Part shown: positions 55,935-61,944 of the stretch, piece by piece
How the letters are laid out: every line of letters begins with the position of its first letter
Position numbering within the stretch: position 1 is the first letter of the stretch
Origin: Chaetoceros tenuissimus
Taxonomy: Eukaryota > Bacillariophyta > Thalassiosirophyceae > Chaetocerotales > Chaetocerotaceae
Direction: 5' to 3'
Assembly (NCBI GenBank): GCA_021927905.1
Contig: BLLK01000022.1
Span: 1,984,001 to 2,048,000 of the forward strand
Length of the DNA stretch: 64,000 bases
Made by a program: the position numbers and the translations under genes
The notes under the pieces: generated by a model
What the model saw: the letters and a program-made list of their open reading frames with translations, nothing else
Databases searched by the model: none
Told to the model about the DNA's origin: nothing

Positions 55935-55939
55935 GTTTT
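55935..55939. repeat. Target-site duplication of the Copia element, left (GTTTT)
   Basis: GTTTT lies immediately before the 5' LTR and again directly after the 3' LTR at 61940..61944. Confidence 0.85.
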
Positions 55940-56230
55940 CGTTGGAAATAATAAAAGAAAGGTGACCAATGACAGTAGTAGCAATCATGCTAAAATTGTA
56001 GAACGACAAAAGAAAACGTATGCAGAAGCAGTAAAGGCTCAGAATGAAGAATGTGTGAAGGAGATGAAGCAACACGTAACGGCAGCATCATCTCATTAAA
56101 TAGAAACCATCCGTTTCTGTATCGAGTAAAACTAAAACTATAGAAGACCAAGTACTTCATCTAGCTACAGAGTATTATATACTACAAAGCTTGAGGAGCC
56201 CGTAGCTGCCAAAAGATAGGTATTTCAACG
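55940..56230 (+). repeat. 5' LTR
   Basis: 291 bp with imperfect terminal inverted ends (CGTTGGAAATA / TATTTCAACG). It contains a coding frame for the polyprotein tail up to a stop at 56097-56099. Directly overlapping that stop is a 14-nt segment, 56096..56109, complementary to the primer-binding site. Confidence 0.95.
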
Positions 56231-56244
56231 TGGTTTCTATTTAA
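56231..56244 (+). promoter_or_regulatory. Primer-binding site, complementary to the element's own LTR
   Basis: TGGTTTCTATTTAA abuts the LTR end with no gap, as expected for a minus-strand primer site. Its exact reverse complement, TTAAATAGAAACCA, occurs in each LTR at 56096..56109 and 61805..61818. The pairing ends in ...ACCA, so a primer cleaved there would place its 3' end at the LTR boundary. Confidence 0.8.
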
Positions 56245-56290
56245 AAGGATAACTCAAATCGCCAAAACAACCTAAGAACTGCAGCGGTTT

Positions 56291-56602
56291 ATGACCATCA
56301 GTCAGGTTAGTAACGACAAACTTTTAGAAGAGATTAGACTACTGAAAGCCACTGTGGAATCGCTTTCAAAGCAATTAAGTAACTTGAAGTTAGAGAAAGA
56401 TAGCAAAATCAAGGAGAAGCTCCCTAGTAAAGAGAAGAAACTAGTGGTAGGAGCGCGTGTAAGAGTGCTAACCAAGGCCAAATACGGGAAGCACGGAGAC
56501 TTCGCCGTAGTGACGCATATCGGGAAAGTGTTTGTGTCCATAAAATTGGAATCAAGTGGGAGAACGACGACCAGATTACCAGAGAATCTAAAGCTAGTGT
56601 AA
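56291..56602 (+). CDS. Copia ORF1: coiled coil plus KOW/SH3-like domain
   Basis: This 103-residue protein starts at ATG 56291. The first half is a Leu/Lys/Glu coiled coil. The second half (Val-Val-Gly-Ala-Arg-Val-Arg-Val-Leu, then Lys-Tyr-Gly-Lys-His-Gly-Asp-Phe-Ala-Val-Val) has the look of a KOW or SH3-like beta-barrel that binds nucleic acid or ribosomes. The stop at 56602 is seven bases before the gag-pol ATG, an arrangement that would suit reinitiation. A separate ORF before gag is not part of the textbook Copia layout. Its role is unknown; it could be an RNA-binding or assembly factor. Confidence 0.65.
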   Translation: MTISQVSNDKLLEEIRLLKATVESLSKQLSNLKLEKDSKIKEKLPSKEKKLVVGARVRVLTKAKYGKHGDFAVVTHIGKVFVSIKLESSGRTTTRLPENLKLV

Positions 56603-56609
56603 AAGCAAG

Positions 56610-59600
56610 ATGAGTGAGAGCAGTAACCAACAGCAACAGCAGCAGCCGGCTGCAGAGAACCAGCAGCAACAAGACCGGTCAGGGAACGTGAATGGCCCAG
56701 GTATTGATGATAGACAGAGAAACAACTACAGAAGTGGCGGAGGTAACGCATTTAGGAACTTCAAAGGACAAATCCAAGAGTTGCCGGTCATGGGAACTAA
56801 GGCGGAGAGCAGCAATCAGAACACAGCAAATTTCATCAAGAAATTTGCTGCATACATTCTGGTAAACTTCAAGAGCCCAAGCATACTATCTAGAGCAGTG
56901 GCAGAGCTAGAAGACCCGCTTGTACTCCTCAGGAATGAACTCCCAGACATTGGCAAAATTGTAACTTACTTGCAAATCGTGCAAGCTGAACCAGGAGAGA
57001 ACGAGACCGAAGCCGAGAGGGCCCTTCGAGTACAGCAGAATAGCATGGCAATGGCACCAGCGAATGCACTGTATGCACAGGAGATGAACCAATTTTCGAA
57101 GAAGAAGAGCCTGCTACAAGAGAACATGGCTAAGCTATGGGGTATAATTCTAGGCCAATGTACCAAAGCCCTTGTTGAGAACTTGAGAGCAGAACACGAC
57201 TTTGAGACACAGCAAAACGACTACAACGCCATCTGGCTACTGAAGAGCATTAAAAGGGTTGTACATGGCGTCACGACATCCTCGAATCCGATTCATACTG
57301 CCTTCACAGCAACTAGGGATTTCTATAAGACCAAACAGATGGGCAAGCCTCTGGAGGACTACCAAGCGGATTTCGAGAATGCGCAGGAATTGGTGGTTCA
57401 GGCGGGTGTCGACATTGTTGACCATGAAGATCTATTGAAGAAAGAGAAAGCTAAGGATCCAACCATCACGGACGAAGATGTAAGACAGAAGTATGCTGCT
57501 ATGGCATTCCTCATGAATGCAGATGTGAAAAGATTCGGAGGACTTTGGGACCAACTACATAATAGTTTATTGCAAGGACAGGACAATTATCCTACTACTA
57601 TGGCTGCAGCAATCCACATGATGACGAATTGGAAGAGTGGAAACAGCAACAATGGTGATAGAAGTAGTAATCAGCAGAGGAACAGAGGAGCAGGACGCAA
57701 CGGTATGCAATTTGCACAGAATGGAGGTGCAATGATCTGTCAGCCTGTAGCAGGTAGAACAGGACCGCTACGCCCTGACATTACCTGCTACAGGTGCAAC
57801 ACACCTGGACATTATGCAAATGATTGTCCAAATGAGAATGGCACCACAGGTAATTACATTATTCTCTCCCAATTTGGCTACATTTTTGTCCAGTCGCAAC
57901 CAAGACTCCCTGAGTCGCTTATCATTGTCGATACCGGCTCAACTTTCTCTTCTTTCTTTAACAGGGGGTTGATGGTAGGAGTAGGTGTGTGTTTACCGAT
58001 CCGAGGACATACGAATGGAGGATTCATGGACTATGACAAGAGAGGTCGTATTAAGTTATTACCAGCTTTGACTGCTTACTTCAATAGTAAGTCTCTGGCC
58101 AATATTCTTAGTATGGCTGATCTGGAGCGGTACTATCGAGTTTTCAAAGATTCCCAACATTCCAGCAGTTTCTTTGTTTTTATCTCCGACGATTACATCT
58201 TGGAATTCAAACAATTGAGCAATGGTCTCTACGGTTTCGATGTCAACAGTAGCAGTAACCTAAACAGGATTCACACATCTACTTCCTTCCATCACCTCTT
58301 CTTTTCAACTGTTAAAGCTAACAAGAGATTCTTCTCCAACGCTGAAGTGGAAGGAGCGGAGAAGGCTAGAATACTCCAAGGAAGGATGGGTTGGCCTTCC
58401 GATGCGGAATTTAAGCGCATTTTAAGTGGACAAGGCAACAGTATTATTAATGCTCCTGTAACAGCAGAGGATGTTACCAGAGCAAGAGCAATTTATGGGG
58501 GATCGGCCGAGCAACTCATCGTAGGCAAAACAGTAAGAAAGCGAGCCAACAAAAACAACAAGATACTCAGAACTGCTTTGCCATCAGATTTAGTACGCCA
58601 CCATCCTACAGAGATATTGGACATAGACTTTTTCTATAGCGACTATGCCCCATACCTCATCATAAGGGGCAGGAATATCCTCTTCATCATTGGAGTTACA
58701 TTTAACAAACGAAAAATAAGTGCAACAGGAAGAGTAACATACTACAGACCAACAGATGAAATAGTGAAGGCATTAAACGACGCGATAGCATTACACAACA
58801 ATAGAGGCTTTACCGTCGAACTAGTGAATGGGGATAACGAGTTTGAGAGAATTAAAGGGAAGGTGAATGCAACAGTCGAAACTTGTGCTGCAAATGAACA
58901 TAATCCGTTTGCTGAGAGAGAAATCAGATTTGTTAAAGACAGACAGAGATGTTACTGGGACAAGCTACCATACAAACAAGTTCCAAAGATCATGGTAGAC
59001 GAAAATATCATTGATGTATTTTACTGGATCAATCAACACCTAAGAGAAGGAAGCATTGCAAAAGACATAAGCCCTGGAGCTGTAATAGAAGGCCGAGGCC
59101 CACATGATGCCAGTAATCTTGAAGTCACTTTTGGAGCATATTGTTTGGTGTATAGGGAGTCGAAAAACAATAGAACACCAAGGTCTATTCGCGCAATAGC
59201 ACTGCGACCTTCCAATTCACAAGGGGGATACTACTTTATGTCTTTGAACACTGGAAAGAGAATACATGGCCATCAATGGGACGAATTAGCAATCACAGAC
59301 GAGGTGATTGACAGAGTACATGAACTAGCAGCGAAAGAGAAAGCAGATTTCTTAGATGAAGATGGAATCCCTAAACTTGGTTTGAGACCTGGACACAACA
59401 TGACCATTGATGACACTGATATAGATGAGGAAGATTCAGATGATGGCAGTGTTTATGTGTACGACGATGTCACAGTATCGTCCACTAGTAGTGAAGAAGA
59501 ATCAGACGGATCTGATGACAGCTCCTACCATACTTCGGATGTAGATGACGATGAATCACTGTCTGAAGATTCAGAAGCAGATATTTCGGAGGAAGAAGAA

Positions 59601-61808
59601 AGGAGCGAAGATGCTAGTGATGAGCATGAAGAACCAAGGAGCGAGGATGTTGAATTAAGGAGCGAGGACGTTGAACCAAGGAGCGAGGATGTTGAACCAA
59701 GGAGCGAAGACGATGCGGATGTAGAAGATAATAGCGTAGAGTCAAATGACGAGGATACCGAGTCGGAATATGAAGGAGAAGATAGCAGTGAAGCTACAAA
59801 TAGTAATGGTGCAGAAGAAAGACCGCAGAGGTCCCAAAGAGTTAGGAGACCACCACAAGACCCTTTGAATAACATAGGCAGTACCGATGGAAAAAGCTAC
59901 ATGCAGACAGAGGAGTTCAACTTCTCAAACTTAGCTGAGAACCTCAATCATACTACTACAAGACAATTGTATTCAAGGGCAGTAGACTACATGTTCAATC
60001 AGATGACAGCAACCGAAGGGATTAAAATATTCCAGGAACGAGCAGTTGCGGCTTTGATAAAGGAATACAAGCAGCTGAACGACATGTGTGTACTGGGAGT
60101 AATTGACTACGACTCCTTGACCGCGGAACAGAAGGCAAAGGCATTAAGAGCAATAAACTTAATTAAAGAGAAAAGAGATGGAAAAATCAAGGGTAGGTGT
60201 TGCAGTGATGGAAGTGGACAAAGGAAGTTCGTCCCCAGAGAGGAAGCATCATCATCAACCATGTCAGTCGAATCATTGATAGCATTAGTAACCATATTTG
60301 CGTTCGAGAAAAGAGATGTAGCAGTATTCGATATTCCAGGTGCTTACTTACATGCCGACTTGCCAGATGACAAGTTTGCACTGTTGAAATTCGAAGGACA
60401 ATTTGTAGATATCATGGTAGAAGTCAATCCAGACTTTGCTGAAAGCGTAAGATACGAGAAAGGAAAGAAGGTGCTATATTGCAGGATCCTGAAGGCTCTC
60501 TATGGCATGATTGAGTCGGCATTACTGTGGTATAACATGTTCGCTGACGTGTTAATGCAAGAAGGGTTCAAGATAAACAAAATAGACAAGTGTGTAGCAA
60601 ATAAAATTGTAGACGGGAAGCAACTCACAATTGGGTGGTATGTGGATGATAACATTGTTGGGGGACAAACTAAGGCAGTCACTGACCTCATCGAAAAGAT
60701 CAACAAACGATTCCCAGGACTGACAATACAACGAGGAAAGAAGCTTGAGTTCCTGGGCATAGATTTCTACTTTCGAGGAGATGGAAAAGTAGACGTCGGT
60801 ACAGTGCCATATATCAAGCAAATGATCAAGGACCTCGAGGAGGAATTAGGTATGGTACTAAATAGGAAGTACACGACACCACATGCGAAGTGGTTATTCA
60901 AAGTGAACAAGAAATCACCAAAGTTGAATAGAGAAAAAGCCGATATATTCTTGAAGTACATAATGAAAGTAGCATGGGCTATGAAAAGGAGCAGACCAGA
61001 CGTGGAGTTCACTAACACTTTCTTGATGACTAGGGTACATGAACCGAATAGGGAAGATTGGCATAAGTTTATGCGAATGATGAGCTGGATAAAGACTACT
61101 CAAGACGACCTCAGGACCGTAGGGGCTGATGATTTGTTGCATATGCTAACCATGACGGATTCGGCTCATGCTGTGCACGATGACATGAGAGGACATACAG
61201 GTCAGATAATTACGATGGGTACAGGTGTACTAGATCAGAAAGCATCCAAACAGAAGATGAATACACGTAGTTCGACTGATTGTGAATTAGTGGGAACCAG
61301 TGAGGGATTGCCGAAGAATATTTATTTCGAAATGTTCATGGAAGAACAAGGATATAAGCTTGAGAGTAATGTGTTGGCAAAGGATAATGAGTCAGAAATT
61401 AAGATCTTGAAGAATGGTCGGGATTCGTGTACGTCAAATATGAAACATGTAGCAATCAAGCAATTCTGGTCAACGGATAGAATCAAGAACGGAAATATTG
61501 AAGTTGTGTATTGTCCGACTGACGAAATGATTGCCGATTACAACACGAAGCCACTGATGGGTAAGGGCTTTACAAACTTCAGAAGAGCAATAATGGGATG
61601 GGACCATATAAGTGTATCATATACAGGGTACACTCACCCGAAGGAGCGCGTTGGAAATAATAAAAGAAAGGTGACCAATGACAGTAGTAGCAATCATGCT
61701 AAAATTGTAGAACGACAAAAGAAAACGTATGCAGAAGCAGTAAAGGCTCAGAATGAAGAATGTGTGAAGGAGATGAAGCAACACGTAACGGCAGCATCAT
61801 CTCATTAA
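56610..61808 (+). CDS. Copia gag-pol polyprotein
   Basis: This single open frame has 1732 residues. A Gln-rich start and helical gag region run to about residue 380. A zinc knuckle follows (Cys-Tyr-Arg-Cys-Asn-Thr-Pro-Gly-His-Tyr-Ala-Asn-Asp-Cys, near 395), then an aspartic protease (Val-Asp-Thr-Gly-Ser, near 440). The integrase core has Asp-Ile-Asp-Phe, Gly-Asp-Asn-Glu and a Glu after Asn-Pro-Phe-Ala as the D-D-E set. An acidic stretch with four 24-bp repeats (Arg-Ser-Glu-Asp-Val-Glu) comes before the reverse transcriptase (Ala-Val-Phe-Asp-Ile-Pro-Gly-Ala-Tyr, then Tyr-Val-Asp-Asp). RNase H follows (Thr-Asp-Ser-Ala-His, Cys-Glu-Leu, and the closing Ala-Asp-Tyr-Asn-Thr-Lys). The last 50 or so residues are encoded inside the 3' LTR. 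All key residues I could check are present. Confidence 0.95.
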   Translation: MSESSNQQQQQQPAAENQQQQDRSGNVNGPGIDDRQRNNYRSGGGNAFRNFKGQIQELPVMGTKAESSNQNTANFIKKFAAYILVNFKSPSILSRAVAELEDPLVLLRNELPDIGKIVTYLQIVQAEPGENETEAERALRVQQNSMAMAPANALYAQEMNQFSKKKSLLQENMAKLWGIILGQCTKALVENLRAEHDFETQQNDYNAIWLLKSIKRVVHGVTTSSNPIHTAFTATRDFYKTKQMGKPLEDYQADFENAQELVVQAGVDIVDHEDLLKKEKAKDPTITDEDVRQKYAAMAFLMNADVKRFGGLWDQLHNSLLQGQDNYPTTMAAAIHMMTNWKSGNSNNGDRSSNQQRNRGAGRNGMQFAQNGGAMICQPVAGRTGPLRPDITCYRCNTPGHYANDCPNENGTTGNYIILSQFGYIFVQSQPRLPESLIIVDTGSTFSSFFNRGLMVGVGVCLPIRGHTNGGFMDYDKRGRIKLLPALTAYFNSKSLANILSMADLERYYRVFKDSQHSSSFFVFISDDYILEFKQLSNGLYGFDVNSSSNLNRIHTSTSFHHLFFSTVKANKRFFSNAEVEGAEKARILQGRMGWPSDAEFKRILSGQGNSIINAPVTAEDVTRARAIYGGSAEQLIVGKTVRKRANKNNKILRTALPSDLVRHHPTEILDIDFFYSDYAPYLIIRGRNILFIIGVTFNKRKISATGRVTYYRPTDEIVKALNDAIALHNNRGFTVELVNGDNEFERIKGKVNATVETCAANEHNPFAEREIRFVKDRQRCYWDKLPYKQVPKIMVDENIIDVFYWINQHLREGSIAKDISPGAVIEGRGPHDASNLEVTFGAYCLVYRESKNNRTPRSIRAIALRPSNSQGGYYFMSLNTGKRIHGHQWDELAITDEVIDRVHELAAKEKADFLDEDGIPKLGLRPGHNMTIDDTDIDEEDSDDGSVYVYDDVTVSSTSSEEESDGSDDSSYHTSDVDDDESLSEDSEADISEEEERSEDASDEHEEPRSEDVELRSEDVEPRSEDVEPRSEDDADVEDNSVESNDEDTESEYEGEDSSEATNSNGAEERPQRSQRVRRPPQDPLNNIGSTDGKSYMQTEEFNFSNLAENLNHTTTRQLYSRAVDYMFNQMTATEGIKIFQERAVAALIKEYKQLNDMCVLGVIDYDSLTAEQKAKALRAINLIKEKRDGKIKGRCCSDGSGQRKFVPREEASSSTMSVESLIALVTIFAFEKRDVAVFDIPGAYLHADLPDDKFALLKFEGQFVDIMVEVNPDFAESVRYEKGKKVLYCRILKALYGMIESALLWYNMFADVLMQEGFKINKIDKCVANKIVDGKQLTIGWYVDDNIVGGQTKAVTDLIEKINKRFPGLTIQRGKKLEFLGIDFYFRGDGKVDVGTVPYIKQMIKDLEEELGMVLNRKYTTPHAKWLFKVNKKSPKLNREKADIFLKYIMKVAWAMKRSRPDVEFTNTFLMTRVHEPNREDWHKFMRMMSWIKTTQDDLRTVGADDLLHMLTMTDSAHAVHDDMRGHTGQIITMGTGVLDQKASKQKMNTRSSTDCELVGTSEGLPKNIYFEMFMEEQGYKLESNVLAKDNESEIKILKNGRDSCTSNMKHVAIKQFWSTDRIKNGNIEVVYCPTDEMIADYNTKPLMGKGFTNFRRAIMGWDHISVSYTGYTHPKERVGNNKRKVTNDSSSNHAKIVERQKKTYAEAVKAQNEECVKEMKQHVTAASSH
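59625..59710 (+). repeat. 24-bp tandem repeat in the Copia pol linker
   Basis: About four copies of a GAACCAAGGAGCGAGGATGTT-type unit encode Glu-Pro-Arg-Ser-Glu-Asp-Val repeats between integrase and reverse transcriptase. Confidence 0.85.
61636..61648 (+). promoter_or_regulatory. Probable polypurine tract
   Basis: The short purine run GAAGGAG directly precedes the 3' LTR, where plus-strand DNA synthesis would start. It is short and lies within coding sequence. Confidence 0.5.
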
Positions 61809-61939
61809 ATAGAAACCATCCGTTTCTGTATCGAGTAAAACTAAAACTATAGAAGACCAAGTACTTCATCTAGCTACAGAGTATTATATACTACAAAGCT
61901 TGAGGAGCCCGTAGCTGCCAAAAGATAGGTATTTCAACG
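61649..61939 (+). repeat. 3' LTR
   Basis: 291 bp, matching the 5' LTR throughout by eye. It carries the end of gag-pol with its stop at 61806-61808 and the second copy of the primer-complementary segment at 61805..61818. Confidence 0.95.
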
Positions 61940-61944
61940 GTTTT
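61940..61944. repeat. Target-site duplication, right (GTTTT)
   Basis: Matches 55935..55939. Confidence 0.85.

Follow-up and report, generated by a model that had tools for sequence, protein, structure and literature searches.

Sequence evidence for self-primed reverse transcription in a Copia retrotransposon clade of the diatom Chaetoceros tenuissimus

A Copia-type LTR retrotransposon located in a 64,000-nucleotide stretch of a Chaetoceros tenuissimus contig (hereafter the window) very probably primes its minus-strand DNA with its own RNA, in a Tf1-like manner. Its primer-binding site (PBS) can pair over 14 nt with a segment of its own LTR, and the two sites change together across five families of the same genome. 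This covariation, together with control families whose PBSs are of the tRNA type, provides strong sequence evidence that the Copia clade to which the element belongs self-primes.

Architecture of the element and complementarity of its LTR and PBS

The complete-looking element spans positions 55940-61939 of the window. Its two LTRs (55940-56230 and 61649-61939; direct repeat D1) are 291 nt long and 100% identical, running from CGTTG to CAACG, and their boundaries were fixed by the flanking 5-bp target site duplication (TSD) GTTTT (55935-55939 at the 5' end and 61940-61944 at the 3' end). All features between the two TSD copies are on the + strand. The PBS (TGGTTTCTATTTAA, 56231-56244) is flush with the end of the 5' LTR and is followed by a small ORF of 103 aa (ORF1; 56291-56602) and by a gag-pol ORF of 1732 aa (56610-61808), which encodes a CCHC zinc knuckle and a reverse transcriptase (RT) and ends inside the 3' LTR. 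A purine-rich, PPT-like sequence (GAAGGAGCG, 61640-61648) directly precedes the 3' LTR, the relatives described below keeping GGAGCG or GGAGTG. The RT is of the Copia type (Pfam RVT_2, E 1.2e-17, residues 1185-1410), and the element also has the paired LTRs and 5-bp TSD expected of Copia elements. The RT domain is C-terminal, after a long region of the ORF, and no integrase Pfam model scored E 1 or better.

The 3' LTR holds a copy of the primer segment (61805-61818), the first bases of which are overlapped by the TAA stop codon of pol (61806-61808), so that in this family the same bases are under both coding and primer constraints. All five families have a small ORF of about 98-123 aa in the position of ORF1, between PBS and gag (L082, L086, L094, L098). 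Judged by eye, ORF1 is coiled-coil-like with a KOW-like C-terminus; the search of 56294-56602 returned no Pfam match above the cut-off, and the small ORF may encode a clade-specific accessory protein.

The PBS is the exact reverse complement of a 14-nt segment of the 5' LTR (TTAAATAGAAACCA, 56096-56109). This perfect match directly after the 5' LTR had been reported in the first-pass annotation together with a very low probability of its arising by chance, and both statements were confirmed: the number of flush 14-mer matches expected in the query LTR from its base composition is about 1.2e-5, and the longest complement to the 30 nt located 3' of the LTR never exceeded 12 nt in 1000 dinucleotide shuffles of the LTR. 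Chance is excluded as the source of the match. At least 17 genomic copies of the element have both 14-mers intact, and the 56 genomic occurrences of the exact 14-mer were all found in LTRs or PBSs of this element (56/56). The exceptions, an insertion in the PBS of one copy (L018) and one changed base in one 3' LTR, are expected of dead copies.

Covariation of primer segment and PBS in five families

Relatives were found by an RT protein search of the same genome, and their LTR-PBS junctions were read from the stretches around the LTR ends. Four divergent relatives (RT identities of 69%, 61%, 42% and 42%) keep the complementarity with different letters, which is the outcome of a check on related elements that the first-pass annotation had suggested. 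The comparison thus covers five family representatives, all from one genome. Segment and PBS are TTAAATAGAAACCA and TGGTTTCTATTTAA in the query, TTAAAAAGAAACAA and TTGTTTCTTTTTAA in C17, TTCAATAGAAACAA and TTGTTTCTATTGAA in C29, C32 and C57, TTCTTTAAGCCTAA and TTAGGCTTAAAGAA in C27, and TTCGTTTAATCTAA and TTAGATTAAACGAA in C36. In every family the match is exactly 14 nt long and leaves no gap to the LTR end (offset 0), and the distance from the start of the segment to the PBS downstream is 127-135 nt. When the LTR of one family was compared with the PBS of another, the complement was at most 9 nt.

With the adjoining LTR base pair included, the helix comprises 15 pairs, 12 of which are changed on both sides, and all 75 alignment cells hold standard pairs (75/75). 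In 500 shuffles, the paired percentage, the number of covarying pairs and the covariation score each stayed below the values observed, and pairing fell to about half when the partner was slid by one column. As a full-leader MAFFT alignment put the PBS of the 42% families in the wrong place, pairs were counted after positioning the two segments by the LTR boundary and replacing the loop by a short filler. The segments were chosen as complementary, which biases the paired percentage upwards; this bias does not extend to the changes of letters or to the comparison across families. The helix was present in both the MFE and the centroid structure of all five leaders (z from -2.3 to -4.2, single-strand folding).

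The flanks of the segment are also conserved, with TCA always on its 5' side (56093-56095 in the query, within an Inr-like TCATT) and YCC always on its 3' side (56110-56112; A|TCC or A|CCC at the junction in 5/5 families). Moreover, the base 3' of the PBS is always an A and stands opposite an A. The flanks and this A-A mismatch set the limits of the helix on both sides.

In an RT tree of 19 elements from this one genome, the five self-complementary families formed a single group (support 100/99), placed on a long stem and with uncertain nearest neighbours. Two further relatives (C40 and C65) have the segment in the 3' LTR, no LTR repeat being present in the 5' stretch examined. No relatives were found in viral contigs.

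The 5' and 3' LTRs of the C36 element (C36:82820-83520 and 88100-89500; L097/L098) agree to only 80% and differ in their primer segments: the 5' segment matches the PBS of the element, and the 3' LTR has a third version of the segment (TTCTTTAAACCTAA) with no match to it. These differing LTRs suggest a mosaic element. Compared with the C27 LTRs, the 5' LTR of C36 has near-identical bases on either side of the segment and a different segment between them, in line with fast, coupled turnover.

Priming mechanism and alternative explanations

The Tf1-like geometry proposed in the first-pass annotation is supported by the pairing of the PBS flush with the LTR end and by its retention in five families. 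In the proposed cycle, transcription would start in the invariant TCATT, at A56095 or close by, which would make the primer segment the 5' end of the RNA; judged from this motif, a start at A56095 is more likely than one at 56096. The RNA 5' end would then fold back onto the PBS and be cut after the 14th paired base (between 56109 and 56110) at the A|YCC junction, probably by the RNase H of the element, the enzyme that does so in Tf1. DNA synthesis would proceed from the 3' OH thus freed, beginning at the LTR end. A primer that remained attached to the cDNA and served as template for the plus strand would impose its sequence on the PBS in every cycle, and this would explain why pairing is perfect although the sequence turns over fast. 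Retroviruses rewrite the PBS from their primer, and the Tf1 self primer is reportedly not removed, to go by the title of a paper on it. The covariation may thus have arisen either through compensatory mutation, which requires the two segments to meet, or through templating of the PBS by the retained primer, which requires an LTR-derived RNA as the primer. More tentatively, the clade may self-prime independently of Tf1/sushi, with a primer free to drift because its retained copy is written into the PBS each cycle; primer identity would in that case serve as a self-consistent, fast-evolving tag that restricts each family to copying its own RNA.

Ordinary tRNA priming, in which a host tRNA would pair with the PBS through its 3' CCA end and the match to the LTR would be incidental, is extremely improbable. 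The query PBS does open with TGG, the complement of CCA, but those of the relatives open with TTG or TTA, which makes pairing with the CCA end of a tRNA impossible, and the ACCA at the end of the query primer strand, pointed out in the first-pass annotation, resembles a tRNA tail by coincidence, the corresponding strands of the relatives ending in ACAA or CTAA. No host tRNA ending in the complement of the PBS, as had been proposed for a check, was found to fit: the search for tRNA genes with the 3'-end pattern TAGAAA gave 35 hits compared to 37 in the reversed control, a near-match 14-mer scan for a tRNA primer was negative, and the best tRNA complement to any of the five PBSs was 6-7 nt among the 33 distinct tRNAs read (partial catalogue, 63 candidates scored). 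Moreover, tRNA priming does not require the LTR segment to covary with the PBS, and a hidden tRNA would leave their joint change unexplained. Priming by an internal tRNA fragment, as in hemiviruses, is very unlikely for the clade, although it has clear counterparts in the genome: three other Copia families have a PBS complementary over 14/14 nt to the initiator tRNA-Met gene. In one of them (C48:443200-443310; L067/L099), the PBS GGTTATGAGCCCGA fits positions 26-39 beside the anticodon, the arrangement of half-tRNA priming. In the other two (C25:3910-4020, L054/L100; C14:143920-144030, L053/L101) the PBS fits positions 10-23 in the D-arm region; priming there would call for a 5' tRNA fragment that is not as long as the classic half-tRNA. 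Half-tRNA priming is probably the mode of these other families, and none of the three (0/3) has an LTR complement of at least 8 nt at the junction. By comparison, all five self-complementary PBSs reached just 6-7 nt with an internal segment of any of the 33 distinct tRNAs read, and the exact 14-mer of the query is absent outside the LTRs and PBSs of its element.

The helix between LTR and PBS could instead serve a structural role (packaging, dimerisation, translation control or circularisation) while another RNA acts as the primer. Closure of the entire R-U5 leader by this helix in all folds would suit such a role, but one strand begins precisely at the LTR end, the point from which minus-strand DNA has to be made, the 14-nt length and the edges are constant, and the tRNAs compared include no other primer candidate; a purely structural helix is accordingly considered unlikely. 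Self-priming itself might also operate in trans, the primer being cut from the RNA of another copy. Retroelement particles normally package two RNAs, and the C36 element, in which the primer segments of the two LTRs differ and only the 5' one matches the PBS, is compatible with such an exchange. The intramolecular helix is nevertheless the predicted fold in every family, and with cis and trans inseparable by sequence, the trans variant of self-priming is regarded as possible but the less expected form.

Other Copia junctions of the genome showed different arrangements. A short-LTR family (C17:433200-433800 and 438590-438655, also given as C17:433-439k; L110/L112) has a bulged LTR-PBS complement of 9+4 bp, flush and 46 nt apart; it may be a second self-primed group or a chance match, and no PBS-like sequence was found after the LTR in two diverged copies. 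In another family (C16:499200-499640; L065/L103), the LTR is immediately followed by a perfect palindrome (TACTTCGAAGTA), which recalls the conserved hairpin site of GalEa elements. Finally, a PBS-like sequence after a short LTR (GGTTATTAAGCCC, C13:775205-775275; L114) is a candidate that could fit a half tRNA-Leu(UAA).

Relation to known priming systems

The mechanism class is known, and its use by Copia elements has been predicted elsewhere; what is new is this diatom Copia clade and the strength of its covariation. Primer choice can differ between Copia clades within one host, and this set of elements offers a test ground for primer-PBS coupling, the cleavage site and primer turnover. Pipelines demanding a tRNA-type PBS might miss such elements, and in one diatom study elements were retained only where a PBS had been predicted (PMC7466962). 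In the main texts of the openly accessible papers searched, self-priming was not found to be reported for any diatom element. The CoDi elements are likewise diatom Copia elements, for which an extra ORF upstream of the polyprotein, named ORF1, was looked for; in the main text of that paper, tRNA has no occurrence and PBS one, and tRNA primers are not discussed (PMC2806351).

Among other Copia elements, the fungal GalEa elements resemble the clade in having no tRNA-type PBS and an RNA structure at the LTR junction, in their case a Conserved Hairpin Site (PMC5445492). The GalEa hairpin is however downstream of the LTR and conserved in sequence, whereas the partner of the PBS is here inside the LTR and its letters vary. 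Hemiviruses and Drosophila copia, which use half-tRNA priming, share the Copia superfamily with the clade, but its PBS matched no tRNA fragment found. A Copia parallel comes from plants: a survey of plant elements predicted self-priming for 12% of them, among which is the Copia TAR lineage with Houba and Osr-1 (PMC6317226). TAR is a land-plant lineage, unlike this diatom clade, and the accessible part of the survey contained no covariation analysis. Self-priming, which the first-pass annotation called unusual for a Copia-type element compared with tRNA priming, is not unprecedented there, given the TAR prediction. Experiments have demonstrated self-priming in Tf1-type Ty3/gypsy elements; for Copia elements, the open literature searched offers no more than a prediction, made for one plant lineage.

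Self-priming is established for Tf1, a Ty3/gypsy element of the Tf1/sushi group, and has been proposed alike for Tj1 (PMC4600332). As in Tf1/sushi, the PBS located after the 5' LTR pairs with a segment of the 5' LTR and RNA, here over 14/14 nt in five covarying families. The RNA-5'-end feature of Tf1/sushi may have its counterpart in the invariant TCATT at the segment edge, which is suggestive, and the release of the primer by RNase H would correspond to cleavage at the conserved A|YCC junction. Unlike Tf1 and Tf2, which belong to Ty3/gypsy, the diatom elements have a Copia-type RVT_2 RT and not one of the Ty3/gypsy type, their helix is 14 nt long compared to 11 in Tf1, and from family to family their primer and PBS change in step.
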